37,615 nucleotides of DNA from a virus, in the IMG/VR virus record IMGVR_UViG_3300008107_006555, positions 1 through 37,615 of that record. One strand, 5' to 3'. This document shows, in pieces, positions 24,625-37,615 of the stretch; positions within the stretch are counted from its first letter, which is position 1, and each line of letters starts with the position of its first letter. The position numbers and the translations under genes are program-made. The notes beneath the pieces are model-generated. The model saw only the letters and a list, made by a program, of their open reading frames with translations. It was not told the origin of the DNA and did not search any database.

Positions 24625-24828
24625 TTATTTGTTAGAATCCAATTGTTCTTTCAAATAAATGTCAATAAGATCCTTTGTCTTGGTTAAATCTTGTTCAAAG
24701 GAACCTTTATGCCGGCATCTTACAATGCGTTTAATGATGTCGAACTCATAGGTATTCAAACCCCACTCTTCTGCAAATTTGTAAAGACTATCCTTGCCTT
24801 TGTAATGTGATTGCGTATTTACGCTCAT
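24625..24828 (-). CDS. Small DUF3310-like protein
   Basis: A 67-residue protein. SHYKGKDSLYKFAEEWGL and IIKRIVRCRHKGSFEQDLTK resemble the HYK...GNxIKYixR...KG...DL-K layout of DUF3310 (SaV-like) phage proteins; I judge this by eye. AAAGGAATCAA upstream of ATG is a strong ribosome binding site. It lies directly after the clamp loader small subunit in the replication operon. The role of DUF3310 proteins is not established. Confidence 0.6.
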   Translation of the reverse strand: MSVNTQSHYKGKDSLYKFAEEWGLNTYEFDIIKRIVRCRHKGSFEQDLTKTKDLIDIYLKEQLDSNK

Positions 24829-25277
24829 TTGATTCCTTTCAACATTTTCTTTTTGTCGCCTTCGCTATATCCGTACATTGTTAAAATGCGTTCGCAACTT
24901 GTTTTATCCATTAATTCAACATAATCAGCAGCTTCGGATTTGCTTACTTGATAATGTTCAGCTATTTGAGCAACTAATTCTTTATCAAACTTATCTTCCG
25001 ATTTGCCTTTTATGTATTTTGCAAATGCTTTGTTATTTGGCAGTAATTCATGATACAATTTGTATGTCTCTTGCGGACGAAGTAATCCAATTGTATATGT
25101 TTGGAATTCGTTGATTAATTCTGTTAATTCCATTCGCATTGATAAGAATCGATTCATCATGTAAGGGCTGAATGCTTTTTGATCTACATCAGACCATTTT
25201 GACCATTCTTTCTTTTTATGAGTTACCCCATCAATAAAATCAAACATTGTAGCTGCTTTACGTTTTTCTTCGGCCAT
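24825..25277 (-). CDS. Clamp loader small subunit, T4 gp62-like
   Basis: A 150-residue protein. After a short leader, MFDFIDGVTHKKKEW, then FSPYMMNRFLSM, LLPNNKAFAKYIKGK and ELVAQIAEHYQVSKSEAADY match the layout of gp62-like proteins in T4-related phages, where PF-MVNR-LS and K-RF-KW-K occur in the same order. Together with the gp44-like ATPase it loads the sliding clamp onto DNA. Shorter than T4 gp62 (187) but within the range of marine relatives, as I recall them. It overlaps the 71-residue gene by one base. Confidence 0.8.
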   Translation of the reverse strand: MAEEKRKAATMFDFIDGVTHKKKEWSKWSDVDQKAFSPYMMNRFLSMRMELTELINEFQTYTIGLLRPQETYKLYHELLPNNKAFAKYIKGKSEDKFDKELVAQIAEHYQVSKSEAADYVELMDKTSCERILTMYGYSEGDKKKMLKGIK

Positions 25278-25492
25278 TATAAATTATATTTTTTACGATA
25301 TTGTTGTTCTAACTGTATACCCATTCCCATTTCTAATATCACTGCATTTTCTGGAATACCGATAATACGCTTTGCGTTCAGAATATCATCAATTGATTTA
25401 TTGCGAAATGACTTTATTTTACATTTTGCATTGCTACGAGTTGATGTTTTAAACACAATTGTAACTAAATCTTTGTGATATGCTTCTGCCAT
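25277..25492 (-). CDS. Small hypothetical protein between clamp loader genes
   Basis: A 71-residue protein placed between the large and small clamp loader genes with one-base overlaps on both sides. The sequence MAEAYHKDLVTIVFKTSTRS is followed by basic KCKIKSFRNKS and an acidic-hydrophobic segment, IPENAVILEMGMGIQLEQQY. I do not recognise it. Tight coupling suggests a replication accessory role. It is too short to be a RegA-type repressor (about 120 residues). Confidence 0.6.
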   Translation of the reverse strand: MAEAYHKDLVTIVFKTSTRSNAKCKIKSFRNKSIDDILNAKRIIGIPENAVILEMGMGIQLEQQYRKKYNL

Positions 25493-26418
25493 TAGATTTC
25501 GCCTAACAAATTAACAAACATTGCCATGATATTGATTTCTTTATCAACCACACTAGCATCTTTAAATTGTGCTTCTGCTATAATCAAAATGCAGGGTGCA
25601 ATATGTCCATGAGCAAAATCATCTAAGTTGTCATATAAAAATGTATATAATGGAGTAAAGTCTTTAACTTTGCTATCTGCGATACATTGTCGAATCTTAG
25701 TAAAAGTTGCTTTTTTATCTTTAGCATTTTTAAGCATTTCTAAAACTTCGGTCATGTAATTTGCTTGAATTGCACTTGCTTTATCCAATTGCAATACTCC
25801 ATTTACTACTGATGCTTGAGCTGCATTAATTGCTCGGCGGACATCTGGATACGATGCATTGATAATTGCTGCAATATCTTTGATATCATATTGAACACCC
25901 TTTTCTTCTAATACAGTAACCAAACGCTTTGCTACATCTGTTTTATTTGGAGGTGTAATTGCAAATGTCTGACAACGTGATTGAATTGGGTCAATAATCT
26001 TTTCAACATAATTACATGTTAGAATGAATCGCGTTGTTTTGCTATAAGTCTCCATTAAGTTTCGAAGAGCAGCTTGTGCATTCGGCGTTAAATAATCTGC
26101 CTCATCTAGGATAATGATTTTCCAACGACGGAAACCTACTGTTGATGCATAACGCTTAATCTTATCACGAACTGCATCTACTGAGTTTTCATCTGATGCA
26201 TTAATATACATCAAATCAGCATCAACACTATTTGCAATAATCTTTGCCAAGGTAGTCTTACCAGTTCCTGCGGATCCGTAAAACAATAAATGCGGTACAT
26301 CGCCGTTTGCAATGAAAATTTTAACTTTTTCAATAATGTGTTCATTGCCAATGTATCCTTCTAATGTGTCTGGGCGAAATGATTCTACCCAAAGTGTATT
26401 TTCTACGTTTCCTATCAT
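25492..26418 (-). CDS. Sliding clamp loader ATPase, T4 gp44-like
   Basis: 308 residues from ATG 26418 (MIGNVENTLWVESFRP); the longer frame to 26469 starts at TTG and is less likely. Motifs: LWVESFRPDTLEGYIGNEH typical of RFC/gp44 N-termini, Walker A LLFYGSAGTGKTTLAK, Walker B IIILDEADYL, sensor 1 RFILTCNY, and the arginine finger IQSRCQTF. The C-terminal helices form the collar. It is an AAA+ ATPase that opens the gp45-like clamp and places it at primer ends, working with the gp62-like protein encoded 215 bases downstream. All catalytic elements are intact. Confidence 0.92.
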   Translation of the reverse strand: MIGNVENTLWVESFRPDTLEGYIGNEHIIEKVKIFIANGDVPHLLFYGSAGTGKTTLAKIIANSVDADLMYINASDENSVDAVRDKIKRYASTVGFRRWKIIILDEADYLTPNAQAALRNLMETYSKTTRFILTCNYVEKIIDPIQSRCQTFAITPPNKTDVAKRLVTVLEEKGVQYDIKDIAAIINASYPDVRRAINAAQASVVNGVLQLDKASAIQANYMTEVLEMLKNAKDKKATFTKIRQCIADSKVKDFTPLYTFLYDNLDDFAHGHIAPCILIIAEAQFKDASVVDKEINIMAMFVNLLGEI

Positions 26419-26429
26419 AATTTTATTTT

Positions 26430-26942
26430 TTAAATTCCAATACGATATTTTAAGTATAATGATAACCAACCACCGTTAACTTCTATATAATTGTATCGTA
26501 TTTCATTGTGTATTATTTGTTGTGCTAAACGATGATTTCCATCAACAACGTAATTTTCATTGTTAATTCTTGCAATTATTGGTAATTTATTTTTAATATA
26601 CCATTTTTCTCTAATCCAAGTTGAATCAATATTTTTCATGAAATAATTTTTATAAAAATCATTGCCGATAATTGTCTTTAAATTTAATAAATCAACTTTT
26701 GTTTTTATTTGTACTGATTTACCCATTAATGCTACTAATATGTATATAGGTAATGCACGATATAATAAGTATGAAACTAATTTTCGTGTTCGCCAATCTG
26801 TAACACTATCATCTTTATCTAAATCAAAATATAATTTAAATATTTCAGTTTGTGTAGGTGTTAATTGATCATCTGTTATTAAACTTGGAATAATAATATG
26901 TTTAATCATCCACCACTTAAGTTCAGCTTTAAATTTTTTCAT
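26430..26942 (-). CDS. ParB-like (DGNHRL) domain protein
   Basis: A 170-residue protein. ARINNENYVVDGNHRLAQQ (124-142) matches the ParB/sulfiredoxin-like nuclease-type core (DG-x-HR), which in ParB binds CTP. The N-terminal 110 residues, with KAELKWWMIKHIIIPS and YRALPIYILVALMG, are helical and unlike ParB, and there is no helix-turn-helix DNA-binding domain. It interrupts an otherwise canonical series of replication genes between dUTPase and the clamp loader. A regulator, nuclease or enzyme role is possible; I cannot choose. Confidence 0.6.
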   Translation of the reverse strand: MKKFKAELKWWMIKHIIIPSLITDDQLTPTQTEIFKLYFDLDKDDSVTDWRTRKLVSYLLYRALPIYILVALMGKSVQIKTKVDLLNLKTIIGNDFYKNYFMKNIDSTWIREKWYIKNKLPIIARINNENYVVDGNHRLAQQIIHNEIRYNYIEVNGGWLSLYLKYRIGI

Positions 26943-27374: not shown

Positions 27375-28085
27375 TTAATTCTGGAGCATCACCAACCAAT
27401 AACTAGATTCAAAATCAGATCCAACAAAATCAATACGAGATAAGCCATCGGGCGATACATGTAATTGGCCTACATCTCCGCGATTTGCTACAAGTACTTC
27501 TTTTAATTTATCTGCAGAAAAACAAACTGGGTCCATATCTGCACCAGGCGTGCTGCCAACTTCAAATGTAATATTATCAGAATTAACTGTGGTATAGTTA
27601 ATAATAAATTTAACAATTCCATTTTGAACTTGTACCGCAAAGTTTTTAGCATCTGGTAATGCATTTTTTGCTTTGATAAATTTGCTAATAAATTCTTCAT
27701 TTACTGCAATCTGTACTTGATATTCAGGTTCTGCATTAATTGTTGGTACTGCCGGAATAACTGTCGTATCAGCTAACATAAAAGTTGCTTGAGTTGTTCC
27801 TTCTGAAATTTTCATTGCATAATTCTTACCAGCTGCTTCTTTAACATCAATATTGATATTTTCTCCAACAGCTCCTAACATTTTAATTAATGCACCGGTA
27901 TGATTAATACCCAACATACCTTTCATAAAAGGTGTTGTATTCCATTTGATCTTACCAACTACGGTTTGATCCATATCAATCAACTCACAAGTAATTGATT
28001 GTTCTGCTTCTTTTAACGTAACCGCTTCGCAATTTCCTGCTAAATAATAACGATTGATAAATGATTGTAACTTGCTTTTTTCCAT
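27375..28085 (-). CDS. DNA polymerase sliding clamp, T4 gp45-like
   Basis: A 236-residue protein similar in size to T4 gp45 (228). It begins MEKSKLQSFINRYYLAGNCE, followed by IKWNTTPFMKGMLGINHTG, FMLADTTVIPAVP and a C-terminal GLSRIDFVGSDFESSYWLV, a pattern I recognise from gp45-like clamps of T4-related marine phages. The clamp forms a ring on DNA, tethers the polymerase and, in T4, couples late transcription to replication. It starts 11 bases after dpdA, with GGAAAACA before ATG. DpdA and the polymerase share a C-terminal KFF(S/T)F that may bind this ring. Confidence 0.85.
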   Translation of the reverse strand: MEKSKLQSFINRYYLAGNCEAVTLKEAEQSITCELIDMDQTVVGKIKWNTTPFMKGMLGINHTGALIKMLGAVGENINIDVKEAAGKNYAMKISEGTTQATFMLADTTVIPAVPTINAEPEYQVQIAVNEEFISKFIKAKNALPDAKNFAVQVQNGIVKFIINYTTVNSDNITFEVGSTPGADMDPVCFSADKLKEVLVANRGDVGQLHVSPDGLSRIDFVGSDFESSYWLVMLQN

Positions 28086-28096
28086 TGTTTTCCGAT

Positions 28097-29356
28097 TTAA
28101 AATGTAAAGAATTTATTAAAGTTTTCTGCATCGGTAGTCGAAATACTACTTCCACCGAATTTTTTATATGTTTTAATGTATTTTTCATAAACTTGTGGTG
28201 CAGCTTCTGGATCTGCAAACATTTCGTGTAATGAAAGAATTACATCATATAAGTCTCTAGGTATCACTGTTTCTAACAATTCTACGTGACTGTCTACCAT
28301 TTGATTGATTTCATTTGCAGCTTGAACATACAAATGTGTATTATGAACAACCATTCTAGGCATAGCTTCTTGTGAATAACGATCTAAGCCTGCATCAGTC
28401 TTACCACCTAATAATTCATAAGTGAAATCTGAACAAGCTGGACAACCCATTGCACAAGGTACATGTTGAGTTAAGTCAATTGCAACTTCTCCCGTTTTAC
28501 CTTGACGAATATGTGCTTGTCTGCGATATTCAGCATTTTTAGGAAAATATAATTCTGAGAATGTTTGTGACTTGTAATTTGTTGAATGGAGATATGTTCC
28601 AAATACTGGATATTGTCCTGGTGAACTAGAATCCGTTGTTATATAGATTCTATTACCATAATGCTTATTCATTAATTTTTGCAATGTTGCTAAAATGAAA
28701 AAATCAGATATTTTACTAATTCCTAATAAGTGGACATATTCCAATCGTTGATTTTCAAATTCGCGTTCTTTAAGCATCAAAGATACCGCAAACATAAAGT
28801 CTACTAATTTTTGCGGGCCGCCGATGGCCCATCCTTGGAAATCAAAATGCTTAAATTTATGATACCACCATGTATACTCATCTGTGTTAGATCCCTGTAA
28901 CATGTTAAGAAATTTTGTCTTACCACTTTGATGTTTTTCAAAATAAGCAAAGTTATCATAACTAATATCTGCACATTCTGCAAATTTATTTCGATACTTT
29001 GTCTTAGGTGGGATATCTAAGTTAGCAGCAACGTCTGAATTGGCTTCTAACCAATGAAAGATCTTTTCTCGTAATTCATTACTATATGGTAATGCACCGG
29101 TTGCAATCTGATAACCTCCAGAGTCACCAAATACTAGTACATCTTTTTCTAATCCTAATTGATCACGGAAATCCATTTTTTTGTAATGATGACCCGCAGT
29201 AATCAAGAAATATGGATGGCGCCATTTTTCTGGATAACGAGAATCAAAAAACTTTACTGGATCGCCATTGTCAAACTTCATATCTTTCTTAAATGCAGAA
29301 ACCATAGATCCTGCAGATAAAGATGGAAAGTATATGAATCTTTTGTTATCGCTCAT
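28097..29356 (-). CDS. dpdA: DNA 7-deazaguanine transglycosylase DpdA
   Basis: A 419-residue protein of the tRNA-guanine transglycosylase fold. DSGGYQ at 78-83 carries the general acid/base Asp, LDIPP at 113-117, GWAIGG at 175-180, HLLGISKI at 209-216, and Asp242 in TTDSSSPGQ is the candidate nucleophile. CAMGCPAC (301-308) plus His338 form the zinc site. DpdA proteins swap guanine in DNA for a preQ0-type base, making phage DNA resistant to host restriction. QueE (36565) and a QueD-like gene (31021) support this role. The C-terminus NFNKFFTF mirrors the end of the phage polymerase. The start has AAAGGAATACA upstream. Confidence 0.88.
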   Translation of the reverse strand: MSDNKRFIYFPSLSAGSMVSAFKKDMKFDNGDPVKFFDSRYPEKWRHPYFLITAGHHYKKMDFRDQLGLEKDVLVFGDSGGYQIATGALPYSNELREKIFHWLEANSDVAANLDIPPKTKYRNKFAECADISYDNFAYFEKHQSGKTKFLNMLQGSNTDEYTWWYHKFKHFDFQGWAIGGPQKLVDFMFAVSLMLKEREFENQRLEYVHLLGISKISDFFILATLQKLMNKHYGNRIYITTDSSSPGQYPVFGTYLHSTNYKSQTFSELYFPKNAEYRRQAHIRQGKTGEVAIDLTQHVPCAMGCPACSDFTYELLGGKTDAGLDRYSQEAMPRMVVHNTHLYVQAANEINQMVDSHVELLETVIPRDLYDVILSLHEMFADPEAAPQVYEKYIKTYKKFGGSSISTTDAENFNKFFTF

Positions 29357-30371
29357 TGTATTCCTTTAAATTATTGATTAAGTGTGTTGCTGAAAAAAAG
29401 TTATTATGTAATTTTAATGCCATTTGTGCAATTGCTTCTGACATATCTCGTTGCTCATATTTCAATATTGCTGCAACTGCTTCGTCGATGCTGTCTGCTT
29501 GTTTAAACAGCGGATCATACATTTCTGTATATGATAAACGATTTGGAACAATTGGGCATGCACCGGCACAAGCCGATTCATACATAGAAATGCCTAATGT
29601 TTCTTGATCTGCAAATGAAACTGCAAATTTAGATCTTTGAAGCAAATCATGATATTCTGTTTTATTTAAATTCATTTCCATTGCTACGCAAAATTGATAA
29701 TGTGACAATTCTGGTCTTGCTGCCAATTCTTGAAATAAATCTAAACGTTTCTCTGGTGCAATTCGATGTGGAAACACAATGATATTTTGTTTTTTATGCC
29801 ATAGAGTTGGCGCAATCATGCTTCTTGTATATTCCATAGGCCAGCCCGTTTTATTAAATGTCGGGTTGAAAAAGATATCATATGTTTTATTAATTAAATC
29901 AAAATGTGCCTTAGTTGCAATCCAATTGTGATCAAATGCTGCAATCATTGCTTGCTCAGCGTGTCTAATCCATGGTTTATCTCCTACGAGACGACCTAAA
30001 AAATCATTTGGGTCATATGAACCCGCGTGCCAAAGTCCGTGCGTTACAACGGGAATATTTAGAAGCTCGCTCATATATTTTACATTAATAATACCTGGAT
30101 GCCAAGCATCTGTAAAAATAATGTGATCTCCTGGCTTAATACATCCTTTAGTAAATATTTCTGCTAATTTATGTACCTGAGTTGCTTTATACATATTAGT
30201 GCCGCCGAAATTCAAAAAAGCACCTGGTGTTGTTGATTCTGGAATAAACTGATCTCCTTCTACAACATGAACATCGAATCCATTATCGCGTAATAGTTTT
30301 GGTACATGTGTCTTCCATTCACATGTATATCGTGTCGGTATTGATTCTAAATCTACTAAAAATACTGTCAT
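29346..30371 (-). CDS. GT-B glycosyltransferase with queuosine-mannosyltransferase-like C-terminus
   Basis: A 341-residue protein. The N-terminal half includes FTDAWHPGI (86-94) and THGLWHAGSYDPND (110-123). The C-terminal domain starts IIVFPHRIAPEKRLDLFQEL and contains SFADQETLGISMYESACAG (252-270) then ACPIVPNRLSYTEMY (271-285). By eye this matches the C-terminal pattern of the GTDC1/DUF3524 group (tRNA-queuosine mannosyltransferase), where S-T-A-x-x-E-x-F-G precedes P-N-R-L-x-Y-P-E. The N-terminal half does not show the DUF3524 motifs. It overlaps the dpdA start by 11 bases, so modification of a deazaguanine base is a serious possibility. It could instead belong to the glycan pathway. Confidence 0.75.
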   Translation of the reverse strand: MTVFLVDLESIPTRYTCEWKTHVPKLLRDNGFDVHVVEGDQFIPESTTPGAFLNFGGTNMYKATQVHKLAEIFTKGCIKPGDHIIFTDAWHPGIINVKYMSELLNIPVVTHGLWHAGSYDPNDFLGRLVGDKPWIRHAEQAMIAAFDHNWIATKAHFDLINKTYDIFFNPTFNKTGWPMEYTRSMIAPTLWHKKQNIIVFPHRIAPEKRLDLFQELAARPELSHYQFCVAMEMNLNKTEYHDLLQRSKFAVSFADQETLGISMYESACAGACPIVPNRLSYTEMYDPLFKQADSIDEAVAAILKYEQRDMSEAIAQMALKLHNNFFSATHLINNLKEYNER

Positions 30372-30390
30372 AACTTATTATAATAAAATT

Positions 30391-30975
30391 CTATAACATA
30401 TCCAAATAATATTGAATATGTTCTGGAATATAGATGATATTTTCGCGTTTCTTGGAATTTTCGATACCTGGAATTATTCTTAAATTTTTTATATCACCGA
30501 TTAATTCTGCTGGTATTTTATTATCAAATCCTTTAGATTTAGGATAAATATGATCAATAGCATAGCCGCCTAATTCAATTCTTCCAATTTTATCAAAATT
30601 TTCTAGAGTATGTAATGGCTGTTTTTTTGTAACACGTAAGACTTCTAATATGTATAAATAACGTTCGTCTTTTGTTTCTGTCCAACGTTCTGCAGTCATT
30701 CCGAATTGAGCTAAAAAATATTTGTCTCGATAATGCTGGTTAAACATTGGATTATTTTCTTTTAGCCATTTGCTATGACTAGGTCGTTTTTTACCTTTGC
30801 TCCAACCTGGTTTGCCATACATTGGATTATTTTGTCCAGCTGAAGAACAACTTTTACATTTACGTTGTTTCCTTTCAGCTTCTCGCGATGTTTTTTTATG
30901 ATTTTTTCCATCATATTTTAATTCACTAGAGCATAAAGGACAATTTCGTATGCTATATGTATCTAAATGTTTCAT
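30391..30975 (-). CDS. HNH homing endonuclease with NUMOD3 motif and zinc-finger N-terminus
   Basis: A 194-residue protein. CPLCSSELKYDGKNHKK with RKCKSCSS is an N-terminal four-Cys zinc-finger-like part. NNPMYGKPGWSKGKKRPSH and ENNPMF are NUMOD3-type DNA-binding repeats, common in mobile endonucleases. The nuclease core is GGYAIDHIYPKSKGF with NLRIIPGIENSKKREN, the H-N-K residues of the HNH fold. Such free-standing genes spread by cutting related phage genomes. It sits between the QueD-like gene and the transferase, with no ribosome binding site evident and a TATAAATATA element 4 bases from ATG. Confidence 0.8.
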   Translation of the reverse strand: MKHLDTYSIRNCPLCSSELKYDGKNHKKTSREAERKQRKCKSCSSAGQNNPMYGKPGWSKGKKRPSHSKWLKENNPMFNQHYRDKYFLAQFGMTAERWTETKDERYLYILEVLRVTKKQPLHTLENFDKIGRIELGGYAIDHIYPKSKGFDNKIPAELIGDIKNLRIIPGIENSKKRENIIYIPEHIQYYLDML

Positions 30976-30979
30976 TTAA

Positions 30980-30990
30980 TATAAATATAA
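30980..30990. promoter_or_regulatory. AT-rich TATAAATATAA element before HNH gene
   Basis: The gap 30976-31020 holds TATAAATATAA (plus strand), ending 4 bases before the start codon of the HNH gene. If it were a promoter for this gene the message would be nearly leaderless; it may instead act in the other orientation. It is identical over ten bases to the elements at 4563, 6628 and 32527. Confidence 0.3.
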
Positions 30991-31020
30991 CTTACTTTTC
31001 AAAATCTTCCCTAATACTGC

Positions 31021-31374
31021 CTAATCTCGTTCTACAACACAACCATTTTCCCAATCTTCCCAAACTTCTACTTTATATAAACTTGGAAATGATTCCAATA
31101 ACCATTCGCCAATTGCCTCACATGACATTGATCCAAATTCTAATACATTTGTCTCCGACCCGGTGAATCCAATACGCAATCCTTTTTGTATCTTGCGATT
31201 CAATAAAATGAATTCTTCATCGCGATCGGTATGCGTTACATGAGCATAACATCGAAACCCAAACATATGACGATGTCGGTCTGATAAGAATGCTACTTCT
31301 GGAAAGATGTCTTTTGCTGCAGGCCAATTATGAAATCCTTCAATATTAAATGTTACTACTACACTATATTTCAT
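31021..31374 (-). CDS. QueD-like (6-carboxytetrahydropterin synthase fold) protein
   Basis: A 117-residue protein of the QueD/PTPS fold. His15 (GFHNWP) and His34, His36 (DRHRHMFGF) fit the three zinc ligands, and SMSCEAIGEWLLESF then VEVWEDWENG match the C-terminal (S/T)-x-E and V-x-V-x-E-x region. The catalytic Cys, expected four residues before the first His of HxH, is Leu30 here, so classical QueD chemistry is doubtful; Cys42 lies nearby. Alongside QueE and DpdA it is a candidate deazaguanine pathway enzyme with altered mechanism, or a pterin-binding protein. It starts within the end of the 149-residue gene. Confidence 0.7.
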   Translation of the reverse strand: MKYSVVVTFNIEGFHNWPAAKDIFPEVAFLSDRHRHMFGFRCYAHVTHTDRDEEFILLNRKIQKGLRIGFTGSETNVLEFGSMSCEAIGEWLLESFPSLYKVEVWEDWENGCVVERD

Positions 31375-31820
31375 TGTTCAAATCTATCAAATTTATAATC
31401 ATCTGGCAATACTTGTTGCATATTATGCACTGTCGTACAATACAATGAATAATCATTATAAACAACTTTAATGCTATCTGTTTTCTTTAACAATCCAGCA
31501 TCCTTTTCATTAAGCATCAAAAGAATATGTGCTCTGATTCTAATCATTGGAGGAATCTTTTCTAACATACCCGGTTCTACTTCAATTGAAACAAATTGTT
31601 TGTCTGTCATCATATTGAATACATTATCCCAATTAAATCCTTTTAAATTGCCATCTACCAATTGACGAGTTGCTGGAGAACAAATATAAACATGAGATAC
31701 AGGTTTCCAATGTTCTTTTCCTAATAACAATGTATTGAAATCGGAAACAAACATTGTTTCTATATCGGTAAATCGACCTTCGACTTCTTTACCGAACCAT
31801 ACGCTTTTATAACCAATCAT
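31371..31820 (-). CDS. Hypothetical protein coupled to the QueD-like gene
   Basis: A 149-residue protein, MIGYKSVWFGKEVEGRFTDI..., with IYICSPATRQL-type and IRAHILLMLNEKDAG segments. No motif is recognised. Four-base overlap with the QueD-like gene suggests a common function, possibly in base synthesis or modification. The pair is flanked by two HNH genes. An alpha/beta fold is likely from the alternating pattern. Confidence 0.55.
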   Translation of the reverse strand: MIGYKSVWFGKEVEGRFTDIETMFVSDFNTLLLGKEHWKPVSHVYICSPATRQLVDGNLKGFNWDNVFNMMTDKQFVSIEVEPGMLEKIPPMIRIRAHILLMLNEKDAGLLKKTDSIKVVYNDYSLYCTTVHNMQQVLPDDYKFDRFEQ

Positions 31821-31843
31821 ACTATATTATAATGAATTTATTT

Positions 31844-32431
31844 TTATTTTCCAAAACTAATTTTATTTTTATAATATAGTTTCTTGTTTTCTTTTTGAAT
31901 TATATCCCAATTAGGGTCTGGTGGGTTGTTAACTTCTTGAAAATTTAAACCAGATTTCATACTACGATCTACTTTCGTATTCCAATGAATTGAACTTGCA
32001 GGTATATTAAAAAATTGCGACAAACCATTGAGATAATCAACTTTTCCGGTAGTTAATTCAATATATTGTTTAGAATTAGGTTTCGGCCCTTTCATATTAG
32101 AACGATGGCATGATGACTTAGGTTTTCTCATTTTTTGTTTAGTTTGTTCAGAATGTGAAAGGTTTTCTTTAATTCGTTGGTATTGTCTAGATGTTGCCCT
32201 TCCCCAATTTGCTAACATGTTTGCGGCGCGCCATAATGATGGAGTGTTATATAATTCAGCTAATAATAAATGAATAATAAAATGTTCGCGAGCTGTTAAA
32301 TCAATAAGATTATCTGCATCATCTGTTCCTCCCATACATCGTGGAATGATATGATGCCTTTCTTTGTAACCTTCTAATTGGCGATTCTTTGCTCTTTCAA
32401 TAATATCATCGTGTATTTTTTGGTATTTCAT
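31844..32431 (-). CDS. HNH homing endonuclease
   Basis: A 195-residue protein. ERHHIIPRCMGGTDDADNLI (24-43) followed by LTAREHFIIHLLLAEL is a complete HNH core with the H-H, N and H residues. QTKQKMRKPKSS and KGPKPNSKQ follow as a basic DNA-binding linker, and FNIPASSIHWNTK near the C-terminus resembles a small helix-turn-helix of the type (NUMOD1-like) that gives target recognition. It lies directly after the polymerase gene, a frequent insertion place for mobile endonucleases in T4-like phages. The 106-base gap before it is unusually structured. Confidence 0.85.
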   Translation of the reverse strand: MKYQKIHDDIIERAKNRQLEGYKERHHIIPRCMGGTDDADNLIDLTAREHFIIHLLLAELYNTPSLWRAANMLANWGRATSRQYQRIKENLSHSEQTKQKMRKPKSSCHRSNMKGPKPNSKQYIELTTGKVDYLNGLSQFFNIPASSIHWNTKVDRSMKSGLNFQEVNNPPDPNWDIIQKENKKLYYKNKISFGK

Positions 32432-32537
32432 ATTAGTAAGAACCTTATGCTGTTCGAGGTGGAAGTTCTCTACTAAGCATAAGGCCTATTATTTAATGTT
32501 TTACATTGTAGCTTCCACTCTACATATATAAATATAA
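32432..32537 (-). other. Structured intergenic element between polymerase and HNH gene
   Basis: The longest gene-free stretch of the window. On the minus strand it carries a perfect nine-base inverted repeat, CCTTATGCT and AGCATAAGG (32476-32484 and 32443-32451), a second repeat GTGGAAG and CTTCCAC (32512-32518 and 32459-32465) that interlocks with the first, and a small AATGT/ACATT hairpin. The arms occur in the order A-B-A'-B', which would allow a pseudoknot. No T-run follows, so it is not a simple terminator. Role unknown: an RNA control element, a small RNA, or a remnant of the HNH insertion. Confidence 0.55.
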
Positions 32538-32538
32538 C
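32525..32538. promoter_or_regulatory. AT-rich TATATAAATATAAC element at the polymerase stop
   Basis: TATATAAATATAAC (plus strand) touches the TAG stop of the polymerase gene and lies about 94 bases before the HNH start. It shares TATAAATATA with three other gaps. If active on the minus strand it would transcribe the structured element and the HNH gene. Confidence 0.3.
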
Positions 32539-35051
32539 TAAAATGAAAAGAATTTGGCTACATTATTATTTTCAGGAAATGCTCCCCATCCCAATGCTGC
32601 ATAAAAATCATCCAATTTATTTTTCAATTCTTTATCAAAGATTTTATTACGATCAATATATTGTGTAACGAAATCAACTGTAACTTGTGGATCTTGATAA
32701 CCTCGAAGTGCCATTGTTTCAAATCCTAATGGATTATCTGATAAATACGCCCATTTAACTTTTTCGCCATCTTGAATAGGATCAATGTCTCGAATTCCAT
32801 TCATATGCAATAAATCATTGTAATTGATTGCAGATTTAACATGTGCCGGTGTTCCTGACAAATATCCGCTAAATGGTTTACGCTTTTTAGTATATTTTGA
32901 TATTTCCTTAACGCCAGAATTCTTCATTACATTTAATACCGGTGAATTTTTCAAACCAGATTTAAAATTATGGATCATATCACTCGTAGCTGTTTTATCT
33001 TTTTCTTTAAGAATATACCACAATGTTTCTTTCATGATTTTTTTGAAATCTTCTGGGAAACTTGATCTTACAACATCTAATCCTTTGATATCAATTTTAT
33101 CCGTAGGTTTACCTTCTTTGAAGATAACCCATTGTGCATAGCGTTTCTTTGCAATCCATAAACCAGATTTTGCAACATATTCTTGTTTGATTTTGAATCT
33201 ATGAGTATCTGTATTATGAAATACTTTTGCATATTGATCATACATCTTATTTACCAAGCCTTGTACTTCTGATGCAATAGCATTAGTTTGATCAATCATG
33301 AATTGCTCATCAGTTTCGTCGTAATTTGGATAACGTTTTTCAATCAACGGCAAACTAGATACAAAGGTTGAATCTGTGTCTGTATAAAATGCAAATTCTG
33401 CTTTGCCTTTAGTTGCATTGATAAAATGATCTTGGCCAATTTCTTTAGCATAATGATTATTGATAACCTTTGCAGAAAATTTAATTACTGCTTGACCAAC
33501 TGATGTAATTGCACCCGCATTATCCAAATCATGGAATCGAAATGTTTTAAGTCCTAATACTCCATAAAATGAATTAAGCAATACTTTTTGTGTTAACTGC
33601 AATGCATCATAGAATTTATAATCTTCAGATCCTACTTCATATTCATCACGTTTGTCTTTATATTCAACACGTTCATCAAACCATTTTTCTAGAATGGTAG
33701 GTAAGAATCCTCTGATGTCAGTTCGATAAACAGTTCCATTACTTGCTACAGTATATGCATTATCATTGAGCCATTGTTTAACATCTTGCACAACGGTACC
33801 ATTAGTTAATGATACTTGAGTTGAATCAGATTTTAATAAACATTCTTGATTCCAATTTTTAATAACACCTACTTTAGTTTCTGGTGAAATATTCAATGTC
33901 ATGATGATACTTGGATAAAGTGAAGTTAAGTCCAAGTCATATATCCATTTGTATAATCCAGGTACTGGGGGCATTACATATGCTCCTGCTAATGCATCTG
34001 CTTCTGTTTCTTCTTCAACAAATCGAAATCTTTTATTCGGGGCAACTAATCCATTGCGTTTCAAATCTACAATTGCTGCACCATCCAAATATTTAGATGC
34101 ATAATAAACATCTTCATATGGGACATGGCCTTTGTGACAAATTGTACGTGCTAATGGAATCAATTGAAGTTTGTCATCTAAGTCATAAACCAAGTTAACA
34201 TCGACCATGTTATATTCAACAAACTTTTCAATGTCTGTAGCAAATAATTGATTTAAGTCACCTTCGTATTCAACTTTACCTCTACCTAACTCAAACTTAG
34301 CAACTGTGTCTAATCGATAATTAGGAAGTTCTGTATATGTAAACTTTTTATAAAGTGTCAAATAATCTAAACTAGATACACCAAAAATTTTATATCGTTC
34401 TCTGTTTTTATTCCACTCAACAATACCCGCAGGTGATAATTTTTTAACAGCGCCGGCACCTAGCAATTTTTTGATTCTATTAACAAGATATGGAATATCA
34501 TAATTATCTGTATTCCAACCTGAGATAACTGTAGGTTGTATCTCTGCAAATGCATTGATAAAACGAGTTAACATAGCTTGTTCTGAAGTGAATATTTCAA
34601 CTACATAGCCATCGCCTTCATAACCCGTACGATCTAATCTGCATTCTTCATCTAATAACAATACTCGGCGGTCTTGGCCTGCTTTGTCATAATATGCAAT
34701 TGAAGTGATTCTAGCACGAGCTTCTTCTGGAGTGGAATATCCATTTTCATCTCGTTCTGTCTCGATATCAAAAAAGAAATCTCTATGTCCTTTAGATGAT
34801 AAATCTGATTCATAATACAAATCAATAAGAGTTCGCATTTCCTCATTGATATCAGATTCATATGCAGATGAATTGTCTTTGTGATTGCCAGGAACCATTT
34901 TTAGTTTAGTTCCATCTAATGATTGATAATTTCCATTATCATCCGGTAAATATGCATATGGTTTAAATGGGAACTTTTGATGACCTAATTCATCATCCCA
35001 TACGTGCATTATACCTGTTTTTTTGTCGTAACCTATTGCTTGATATGCCAT
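32538..35051 (-). CDS. Family B DNA polymerase, T4 gp43-like
   Basis: An 837-residue replicative polymerase. The 3'-5' exonuclease is intact: FFFDIETE (Asp95, Glu97), SGWNTDNYDIPYL (178-190) and EYNMVDVNLVYD (279-290). The polymerase motifs are DLTSLYPSIIMTLNISPET (374-392), KVLLNSFYGVLGL (489-501) and YTDTDST (556-562); KKRYAQWV lies in the palm-thumb link. The palm motif is nearly that of T4 gp43, and length is close to T4 (898). The C-terminus NVAKFFSF is the expected clamp-binding tail. No intein or intron is visible. It starts at the stop of the phosphoribosyltransferase gene (TAATG). Confidence 0.97.
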   Translation of the reverse strand: MAYQAIGYDKKTGIMHVWDDELGHQKFPFKPYAYLPDDNGNYQSLDGTKLKMVPGNHKDNSSAYESDINEEMRTLIDLYYESDLSSKGHRDFFFDIETERDENGYSTPEEARARITSIAYYDKAGQDRRVLLLDEECRLDRTGYEGDGYVVEIFTSEQAMLTRFINAFAEIQPTVISGWNTDNYDIPYLVNRIKKLLGAGAVKKLSPAGIVEWNKNRERYKIFGVSSLDYLTLYKKFTYTELPNYRLDTVAKFELGRGKVEYEGDLNQLFATDIEKFVEYNMVDVNLVYDLDDKLQLIPLARTICHKGHVPYEDVYYASKYLDGAAIVDLKRNGLVAPNKRFRFVEEETEADALAGAYVMPPVPGLYKWIYDLDLTSLYPSIIMTLNISPETKVGVIKNWNQECLLKSDSTQVSLTNGTVVQDVKQWLNDNAYTVASNGTVYRTDIRGFLPTILEKWFDERVEYKDKRDEYEVGSEDYKFYDALQLTQKVLLNSFYGVLGLKTFRFHDLDNAGAITSVGQAVIKFSAKVINNHYAKEIGQDHFINATKGKAEFAFYTDTDSTFVSSLPLIEKRYPNYDETDEQFMIDQTNAIASEVQGLVNKMYDQYAKVFHNTDTHRFKIKQEYVAKSGLWIAKKRYAQWVIFKEGKPTDKIDIKGLDVVRSSFPEDFKKIMKETLWYILKEKDKTATSDMIHNFKSGLKNSPVLNVMKNSGVKEISKYTKKRKPFSGYLSGTPAHVKSAINYNDLLHMNGIRDIDPIQDGEKVKWAYLSDNPLGFETMALRGYQDPQVTVDFVTQYIDRNKIFDKELKNKLDDFYAALGWGAFPENNNVAKFFSF

Positions 35052-35557
35052 TAATTTATCTTATATATGTCTCTTAATTCTCGTTGCGTTCCGTTGTTAT
35101 CTAATCCGTAGCCGATTACCCACTCTTCATTAATTGTAAATCCACAATAATCAGTCATATCAACGCCGCCGCCTCTTCGAAGCAATGTAACAACTTTTAC
35201 TTCTTGTGCCATTCGACTGTTAACTTTAAATAATGCTTCTAAAATTGTGGCACCAGAATCACAAATGTCATCTACAATATATACTCGTTTACCTTTAAGT
35301 TCTAATTCTAAATCTTTAAGACAAACAACGCCTCCGGAATTATCCTGACCTTCATATGATTTTAATCGTAAAAAATCAATCTCACAATTAATTGACATAT
35401 ATCGAGTTAAATCTGAAAAGAAATGTATTGCACCGTTTAATAAACAAATCATTACTGGTGGTAATGCATTTTCTGACTGCACATGATCAACTGAAATTTG
35501 TTGTGCTAATTCTAATACTCTGTTTTGTATTTCTTCGTTTGTAATAAGGAGTTCCAT
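35051..35557 (-). CDS. Purine phosphoribosyltransferase, HPRT-like
   Basis: A 168-residue type I phosphoribosyltransferase. VYIVDDICDSGATILEALF at 92-110 is the PRPP-binding signature, CLLNGAIHFFSDL at 38-50 the PPi loop and hood region, and DFLRLKSYEG at 61-70 the flexible loop. Layout and the C-terminal WVIGYGLDNNGTQRELRDI (GYGLD for the purine-side lid) match hypoxanthine-guanine enzymes. It would make IMP or GMP from free bases, for example from degraded host DNA or from guanine released by DpdA. It overlaps the small membrane gene by 46 bases. Confidence 0.88.
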   Translation of the reverse strand: MELLITNEEIQNRVLELAQQISVDHVQSENALPPVMICLLNGAIHFFSDLTRYMSINCEIDFLRLKSYEGQDNSGGVVCLKDLELELKGKRVYIVDDICDSGATILEALFKVNSRMAQEVKVVTLLRRGGGVDMTDYCGFTINEEWVIGYGLDNNGTQRELRDIYKIN

Positions 35558-36367: not shown

Positions 36368-36565
36368 TCATTTTCGGTCTCTTTGTGAAATCCAAAATTG
36401 TAATTCTGATGTTGTTGGTACTTTTGTTAAATCAAAATGCCGAACATATTCATCTGCCAAATAAGCTGGCATTTGAACTGATTCATAAGTTAATTGATTC
36501 CATGTTACCATATTTAAATGGTTCTTTTTACGTTTTGGACGTTTAAGTGGTGTTTGTCGTTTCAT
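36368..36565 (-). CDS. Small basic hypothetical protein
   Basis: A 65-residue protein with the strongly basic N-terminus MKRQTPLKRPKRKKNH and a mixed C-terminal part, MPAYLADEYVRHFDLTKVPT then ELQFWISQRDRK. The start overlaps the queE stop by one base. Nucleic-acid binding is suggested by charge only. A 58-base AT-rich gap with a weak hairpin follows before the thioredoxin gene. Confidence 0.55.
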   Translation of the reverse strand: MKRQTPLKRPKRKKNHLNMVTWNQLTYESVQMPAYLADEYVRHFDLTKVPTTSELQFWISQRDRK

Positions 36566-37383
36566 TATACTCCTCGTTTAGTGTCAAATGCAATGATGTG
36601 GTCTCTTCCGGTCATGTTATAACCTCGTTCAGCACACATATCAAATACAATTGGATACATTTTAATTAATTCATCTCTAGTGTCGCCAGCTGGCATAATA
36701 AATGTCTTTGATTTTGGTATTACATGTTGAATTCGAAAAATTTCAATTTCTCGTAAATTTTCTTCTGTACCATCCCATACTGGTTTGTAATGATAATCAG
36801 AATGATATGATAACATTTTATCTATTGCTTCGTGATTAAGACGAAATTTATTATGTTGCTTAACCATTTTTTCATCCGTAATTGTGCCTTGTGGCGTAGC
36901 AACACCTACAACAGGAACGCTATTATTAAACTTAGGACTGAGACTAATAAGCCCAAGTGGATAATCAGTTTCAATAAAATGAGATCCTTCCGTCTCAATA
37001 GTGATAAGAATATCTCTTTCATGGGCAAAATGCGTTAACTCATTTACTAATGCAGGGTGCATTGTAGGAGAACCGCCAGTTAACATCATTTCATTAATAT
37101 GAGGATTCTCATCATAAATTGCAATGATATCATTAAAAGTAAATGTACCTTTTTCTGGGTGGATACTCGTATACCATGAGTCACACCAACCGCCTTCGCC
37201 GAAATAGCATCGATGGGTGCAACCTGTAGTTCTAACTGCAATAGTAGGTCGACCAAATCGACTGCCTTCGCTCTGCACACAACGGTACAATTCTACTATT
37301 GGTAATGTTTTTGTGTAATCTGCGATTCTTCCTGGTTTCATAACTGGCTTAAAAAGGTAATTCATCATCATCGGTATTGACAT
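36565..37383 (-). CDS. queE: 7-carboxy-7-deazaguanine synthase QueE (radical SAM)
   Basis: About 272 residues, or 258 if started at ATG 37341 (MKPGRIADYTK), just after the upstream stop; no start has a clear ribosome binding site. VELYRCVQSEGSRFGRPTIA (30-49) is the QueE N-terminus. RTTGCTHRC at 51-59 and GGWCDSWY bind the 4Fe-4S cluster, and LTGGSPTMHP at 101-110 is the GGEPxL-type motif; TIETEGS and SLSPKF follow. QueE makes 7-carboxy-7-deazaguanine from carboxytetrahydropterin. The cluster spacing is C-x3-C-x7-C, not the common C-x3-C-x2-C. With dpdA in the same window it supports base-modified DNA. Confidence 0.88.
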   Translation of the reverse strand: MSIPMMMNYLFKPVMKPGRIADYTKTLPIVELYRCVQSEGSRFGRPTIAVRTTGCTHRCYFGEGGWCDSWYTSIHPEKGTFTFNDIIAIYDENPHINEMMLTGGSPTMHPALVNELTHFAHERDILITIETEGSHFIETDYPLGLISLSPKFNNSVPVVGVATPQGTITDEKMVKQHNKFRLNHEAIDKMLSYHSDYHYKPVWDGTEENLREIEIFRIQHVIPKSKTFIMPAGDTRDELIKMYPIVFDMCAERGYNMTGRDHIIAFDTKRGV

Positions 37384-37615
37384 GGCCGGGTTGATTATCT
37401 AGTTTATAAATTAATTGATTGAATTTATTTTCTAACTCTACAAGCTTTTGATAGATCTGATCGATCATATATGCCTGAGGTGCTGGGTCGTTACCGAAAT
37501 GTTTATCCAAGAATGATTTAGGATAAGTTGCAACTTGTTTGTAATTATCTCGTTGCACTTCTATTGGTAAATCGCGCCAAACTACTTTAATGCCATCTCG
37601 TTGAGCAGCGTCATT
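37349..37615 (-). CDS. Partial protein with SSB-like acidic C-terminal tip
   Basis: The frame is open to the right window edge, so only the C-terminal 88 residues are seen. It reads NDAAQRDGIKVVWRDLPIEV, then SFLDKHFGNDPAPQAYMIDQ, a coiled-coil-like stretch LVELENKFNQLIYKLD, and ends HVNTDDDELPF. That end resembles the acidic tip of bacterial SSB (DDDIPF) that recruits repair and replication proteins. It may be a single-strand DNA binding or replication protein. The stop lies inside the queE reading frame if queE starts at 37383. Confidence 0.65.
   Translation of the reverse strand, partial: NDAAQRDGIKVVWRDLPIEVQRDNYKQVATYPKSFLDKHFGNDPAPQAYMIDQIYQKLVELENKFNQLIYKLDNQPGHVNTDDDELPF

Follow-up and report, generated by a model that had tools for sequence, protein, structure and literature searches.

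A polymerase-like C-terminal tail on a phage DpdA-like transglycosylase suggests tethering to the sliding clamp

A C-terminal peptide common to DpdA and the DNA polymerase

The window analyzed here, the whole 37,615-nt stretch (37.6-kb, read 5' to 3') of IMG/VR virus record IMGVR_UViG_3300008107_006555, has most of its genes on the minus strand. These include a family B (gp43-type) DNA polymerase gene (positions 32538-35051, 837 amino acids; PF00136, 1.2e-38; PHROG 262 DNA polymerase, 4e-184), a dpdA-like gene for a predicted DNA 7-deazaguanine transglycosylase of the tRNA-guanine transglycosylase fold (28097-29356, 419 amino acids), and a gp45/PCNA-type sliding clamp gene (27375-28085, 236 amino acids), all on the minus strand. 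The polymerase ends in ...NNVAKFFSF and DpdA in ...AENFNKFFTF, and the initial annotation had proposed from this common KFF(S/T)F ending that both proteins bind the clamp. The coordinates, strands, and peptides were confirmed, and so was the uniqueness of the ending, since no other [KR][FY]FxF C-terminus occurs among the window open reading frames (ORFs) of at least 60 amino acids. The clamp gene, which had been said to follow dpdA directly, begins 11 bp past the dpdA stop codon, and across relatives all 121 loci measured have a gap of 8-20 bp between the two genes. We predict clamp-binding motifs in FNKFFTF at the end of DpdA (28100-28120, minus strand; based on its conservation and its match to the own-polymerase tail in distant lineages) and in VAKFFSF at the end of the polymerase (32541-32561, minus strand), the latter having the position and pattern of the RB69 gp43 tail ...SLFDMFDF, a known gp45 ligand (PMC2988020).

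Fold comparison was needed to identify both DpdA and the clamp, because Pfam gives the dpdA-like product (28097-29356) no hit and the clamp no clamp-family hit. The AlphaFold2 (AF2) model of DpdA has a mean predicted local distance difference test (pLDDT) score of 79.5 and matches tRNA-guanine transglycosylases (E 1e-8) and the DpdA structure 7ui4 (2.5e-7) in Foldseek. The DSGG(F/Y)Q and DSSS motifs are invariant in the family, with columns D78, S79, G80, G81, and Q83 as well as D242 and S245 unchanged over 29 sequences; we take the catalytic Asp residues to lie in DSGGFQ and in the region of the second Asp, DSSS. Comparison of the DpdA profile with phage 9g DpdA by hhalign gave no meaningful score, and the DpdA2 of phage nt-1 gave a weak but real alignment across the core. 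The model of the clamp has the two-domain clamp fold and matches PCNA and T4 gp45 (3u61/6drt; Foldseek E 4e-11 to 7e-10); the protein matches PHROG 223 processivity factor at 1.3e-7, and its profile gave no meaningful hhalign score against T4 gp45.

DpdA residues 402-419 (28100-28153, minus strand), which follow a helical domain that ends around residue 400, form an apparently unstructured C-terminal extension with pLDDT below 50, which, as far as the model goes, is as expected for a tethered short motif. FNKFFTF within this segment has the features of a hydrophobic C-terminal h-x-x-[LFM]-[FY] peptide on a flexible tail, and it aligns without gaps with RB69 gp43 LFDMFDF, the window polymerase VAKFFSF, and the polymerase of phage Phosso (FNDLFTF). 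The general form is hydrophobic-x-x-[L/F]-F, more fully h-x-x-[LF]-F-x-[FW], and the T4 tails of gp43 (LDFLF(G)), gp55 (LDFLY), and gp33 (LDFLL) are similar. The RB69 tail has been crystallized on gp45, and the gp43, gp55, and gp33 tails are freely interchangeable gp45 ligands (reviewed in PMC2988020), the binding site of each gp45 protomer being a hydrophobic patch (PMC7892883). The window peptides thus resemble T4-type clamp tails in being short hydrophobic C-terminal peptides with a flexible linker and a hydrophobic-x-x-aromatic/aliphatic-aromatic pattern, present on the polymerase and on another putative client. They differ in that the client would be a DNA-modifying enzyme for base exchange and neither a polymerase nor a transcription factor, and many DpdA homologs carry the motif inside an acidic tail.

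Conservation of the tail in relatives and distant lineages

Among close relatives, Fx[KQE][FY]F is kept in all 79 distinct dpdA genes and the terminal Phe in 71 of them, over a range down to ~70% overall identity. As the peptide is kept while its codons vary, conservation acts on the peptide and not on the DNA. Close homologs devoid of the tail, which the initial annotation had named as evidence that would count against it, were not found in this set. One subgroup (10 loci, L070-L077 and kin; DpdA ~80% identical) has additional residues past FxxFF and ends in FNQFFGQKTN/KQN, a five-residue extension in which FxxFF is kept and the final aromatic residue is not; T4 gp55 likewise continues past its motif (LDFLYEAND). 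The polymerases encoded alongside these dpdA genes all terminate in [KR]FFx[FY], followed by a few residues at most, and in an ortholog scan of near-complete relatives, which took in 124 proteins of genome G003 with orthologs in at least two other such relatives, only the polymerase and DpdA had an [FY]FxF ending. Microcystis phage Mel-JY01, which is the nearest isolate, lacks a DpdA match; its polymerase ends in LSKFFNFK. The initially reported identity of the KFF codons (AAA TTC TTT) in the two window genes was verified; codon identity was dropped as evidence, the codons being the same in only 13 of 48 same-locus dpdA/polymerase pairs of relatives.

More distant comparisons were possible with isolates of unrelated jumbo phages, whose DpdA homologs are only 22-33% identical to one another. 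In Vibrio phage 2.275, the polymerase ends in NNTDLFDW and DpdA in NNNDLFGW. The corresponding tails in Pseudomonas phage PAC2 (Wroclawvirus) are FDSLFGW and SNSFNSLFDV (motif FNSLF), and in Phosso the polymerase tail FNDLFTF is accompanied by a DpdA with VEGLF at its extreme end. Scans of IMG/VR with the single Vibrio 2.275 or PAC2 DpdA sequence found nothing, whereas profile scans yielded 79 distinct distant DpdAs, which fall into about 48 clusters. The polymerase and DpdA tails are identical in two of these contigs (FNKLFDF in L237 and FGSLFSF in L282) and nearly so in L226 (LQAFFEF/LNEFFEF) and L291 (MQQFFEF/MNEFFEF). In distant DpdAs, the motif lies 0 to ~40 residues from the end within acidic low-complexity tails that retain FxxLF. 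Covariation of the two tails, proposed initially as a check, is thus seen in several deep lineages.

With shared ancestry only partly corrected for, FxxLF or FxxFF was found in the last 60 residues of 27 of 48 DpdA clusters compared with 5 of 404 other same-locus ORFs, and the strict pattern hxx[LFM]F in 33 of 48 clusters compared with 25 of 404. One of the five other carriers is a split polymerase, and two more look like genuine further carriers: L218:12269-12817 and L239:11557-12141 have FNSLFDV or FQNLFAY near the C-terminus and are, by this pattern, candidate further clamp clients. The DpdA tail also fits the tail of its own polymerase better than those of other lineages (permutation p 5e-5, and 0.001 in the deep-lineage subset, again with shared ancestry partly uncorrected). 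On the DpdA core tree, DpdA followed the polymerase in both changes between FF and LF types (1.9 of 2 pairs in an independent-pairs test), an agreement that is underpowered. The likeness could in principle reflect chance or shared ancestry of two short Phe-rich C-termini with no docking role, as a five-residue match is weak by itself in an AT-rich genome and the identical codons are incidental; given the purifying selection on the peptide, its recurrence in distant lineages, and its enrichment over other ORFs, we consider such an origin extremely improbable.

The tail might instead be a structural element of DpdA, such as a dimer or domain contact, which came to resemble the polymerase tail by convergence on a common hydrophobic pattern. 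Conservation in the window group is also high over the ~30 residues preceding the tail (KTYKKFGGxSISTTDA), and the AF2 model includes a low-confidence short helix at residues 410-416. This explanation appears improbable when set against the pLDDT below 50 over residues 402-419 and the shifting position of the motif in distant DpdAs, and one would not expect a structural element to follow the polymerase tail of each phage as observed.

The neighborhood of dpdA and the clamp gene recurs in unrelated phages. The order polymerase-clamp-dpdA on one strand is found in all 117 distant loci that hold the three genes, and it also occurs in the siphovirus 9g; PAC2 has polymerase-clamp-x-dpdA-glycosyltransferase, and Vibrio 2.275 has polymerase-clamp-x-x-dpdA followed by preQ0 (7-cyano-7-deazaguanine) genes. 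A separate observation concerns the gp32-like single-stranded-DNA-binding (SSB-like) protein of relatives (L121, L167, L156, and others; L191 in Mel-JY01), which ends in the clamp-motif-like (A)F[ND]DLFN and, judged from this ending, is possibly a third clamp client. A tail of this type common to several replication proteins would also suit docking of DpdA elsewhere in the replisome, for instance on the clamp loader, the polymerase, or the SSB-like protein. We regard this as highly improbable, as the known receptor of gp43-type polymerase tails is the clamp (PMC2988020, PMC7892883) and the conserved neighbor of dpdA is the clamp gene.

Neighboring genes and the 7-deazaguanine context

The window also encodes a QueE-like radical SAM enzyme of 7-deazaguanine precursor synthesis (36565-37383, minus strand; PHROG 2076 QueE-like, 3.6e-47). 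FolE and QueD are present in all eight relatives searched, and QueC (PF06508) was not found in any of nine records, suggesting that the phage may take QueC from its host or may insert the 7-carboxy base as such. Considering fold, motifs, and context, we find the name DpdA justified for an enzyme whose activity is predicted from its model. Directly upstream of dpdA lies a glycosyltransferase gene (29346-30371, minus strand), whose product shares 39% identity with the glycosyltransferase encoded after the PAC2 dpdA homolog, a higher level of conservation than that of DpdA. Its substrate could be the inserted 7-deazaguanine, resulting in DNA glycosylation. Directly upstream of the polymerase gene is a hypoxanthine-guanine phosphoribosyltransferase-like gene (35051-35557, minus strand), whose product might recycle guanine freed by DpdA; PAC2 also has a phosphoribosyltransferase-domain gene near dpdA, with no sequence similarity to that of the window.

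Replication genes at this locus further include a clamp loader large subunit (gp44-like; 25492-26469, minus strand; PHROG 168, E 7e-85) and a clamp loader small subunit (gp62-like; 24825-25277, minus strand; PF16790, 2e-7; PHROG 225, 4e-18). An incomplete ORF (37349-37615, minus strand) ends in DDDELPF, similar to the acidic tip that single-stranded-DNA-binding proteins of bacteria have. Between the polymerase and the dpdA/glycosyltransferase genes lie the genes for two small proteins with HNH-like endonuclease features (30391-30975 and 31844-32431, minus strand), and the PAC2 polymerase gene is split by a putative homing endonuclease.

Probable clamp docking and proposed replication-coupled base exchange

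The conservation and disorder of the tail, its match to the own polymerase, the gene order, and the gp45-ligand pattern together lead us to think that the sliding clamp tethers DpdA. The comparisons give good support for clamp binding by both tails, and we consider it very probable, from the sequences compared, that the DpdA tail is a clamp-binding motif on a flexible tether which uses the pocket of the polymerase and holds DpdA on freshly replicated duplex for guanine exchange. The parts of this explanation that we infer are the binding, the pocket used, and the timing relative to the fork (at it or behind it). FNKFFTF would dock in the hydrophobic pocket of the gp45/PCNA-type clamp that the polymerase would fill with VAKFFSF, and docking would hold DpdA on the newly replicated duplex, where it would replace guanine with a 7-deazaguanine base on the new, unmodified strand. 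DpdA would probably use either clamps that the polymerase leaves behind or, within the trimer, a protomer that is free, and we propose that guanine exchange, with the enzyme held on the new duplex, would be fast and local. Given the shared peptide and the same pairing in unrelated phages, the modification probably takes place at the replication fork or just behind it.

A DNA-modifying enzyme tethered to a clamp is a known idea, and DpdA as such an enzyme appears to be new; no description of DpdA or a tRNA-guanine transglycosylase together with a sliding clamp was found in the literature searched, subscription literature lying outside this search. The closest parallel is T4 alpha-glucosyltransferase, which co-purifies with gp45 whereas beta-glucosyltransferase does not (PMC13216743; interaction reported by Sommer 2004). 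Like the putative DpdA-clamp pair, it is a phage base-modifying enzyme on the sliding clamp of the phage, but it transfers glucose to 5-hydroxymethylcytosine instead of exchanging bases and has no obvious polymerase-like C-terminal tail. Dnmt1 binds PCNA (PMC9690074) and likewise couples DNA modification to replication through a clamp-binding motif, although it serves eukaryotic maintenance methylation and is unrelated to DpdA. The phage DpdA and DpdA2 enzymes of 9g, CAjan, and nt-1 (PMC6884629) share with the window protein the tRNA-guanine transglycosylase fold and an occurrence in phages with 7-deazaguanine synthesis genes, and in 9g dpdA also adjoins the clamp and polymerase genes. However, 9g DpdA (317 amino acids) ends with a core helix and is missing the long C-terminal extension, its terminal LQDLFDE not being counted as a motif. 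In two phages whose records yielded no family B polymerase, NCTB and Peetri, the DpdA homologs end with no clamp-like motif (Peetri has an internal SSLF), which speaks for the proposed link.

Several points weigh against clamp tethering of DpdA. The polymerase FF/LF type changed only twice on the DpdA core tree, and two pairs cannot reach significance; moreover, the enrichment and permutation tests correct incompletely for shared ancestry. Motifs are weak in several DpdAs (L216, L222, L277, L298, L321, and L339), and the DpdA2 of the T4-like phage nt-1, which belongs to a different subfamily, has no such tail, implying that clamp tethering would not be universal among DpdAs. In addition, gp45 binding is not the main cause of the larger glucosylation share of T4 alpha-glucosyltransferase according to a 2026 study that confirmed the binding (PMC13216743).

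The explanation extends beyond the window phage to a wide set of phages with family B polymerases. We see roughly an even chance that in many of these phages DpdA exchanges bases as part of the replisome, with a clamp-tethered unit, perhaps including the glycosyltransferase, rewriting nascent guanines behind the fork and its tail kept matched to the polymerase motif during divergence. DpdA has so far been studied as a free enzyme, and the tail bears on how phages put 7-deazaguanine on new DNA at a high level and in time, before host nucleases act. If true, a clamp-docking tail would tie modification to replication, account for the clustering of dpdA with the clamp and polymerase genes in several unrelated phages, and extend the idea known from T4 alpha-glucosyltransferase with gp45 and from Dnmt1 with PCNA to transglycosylases.

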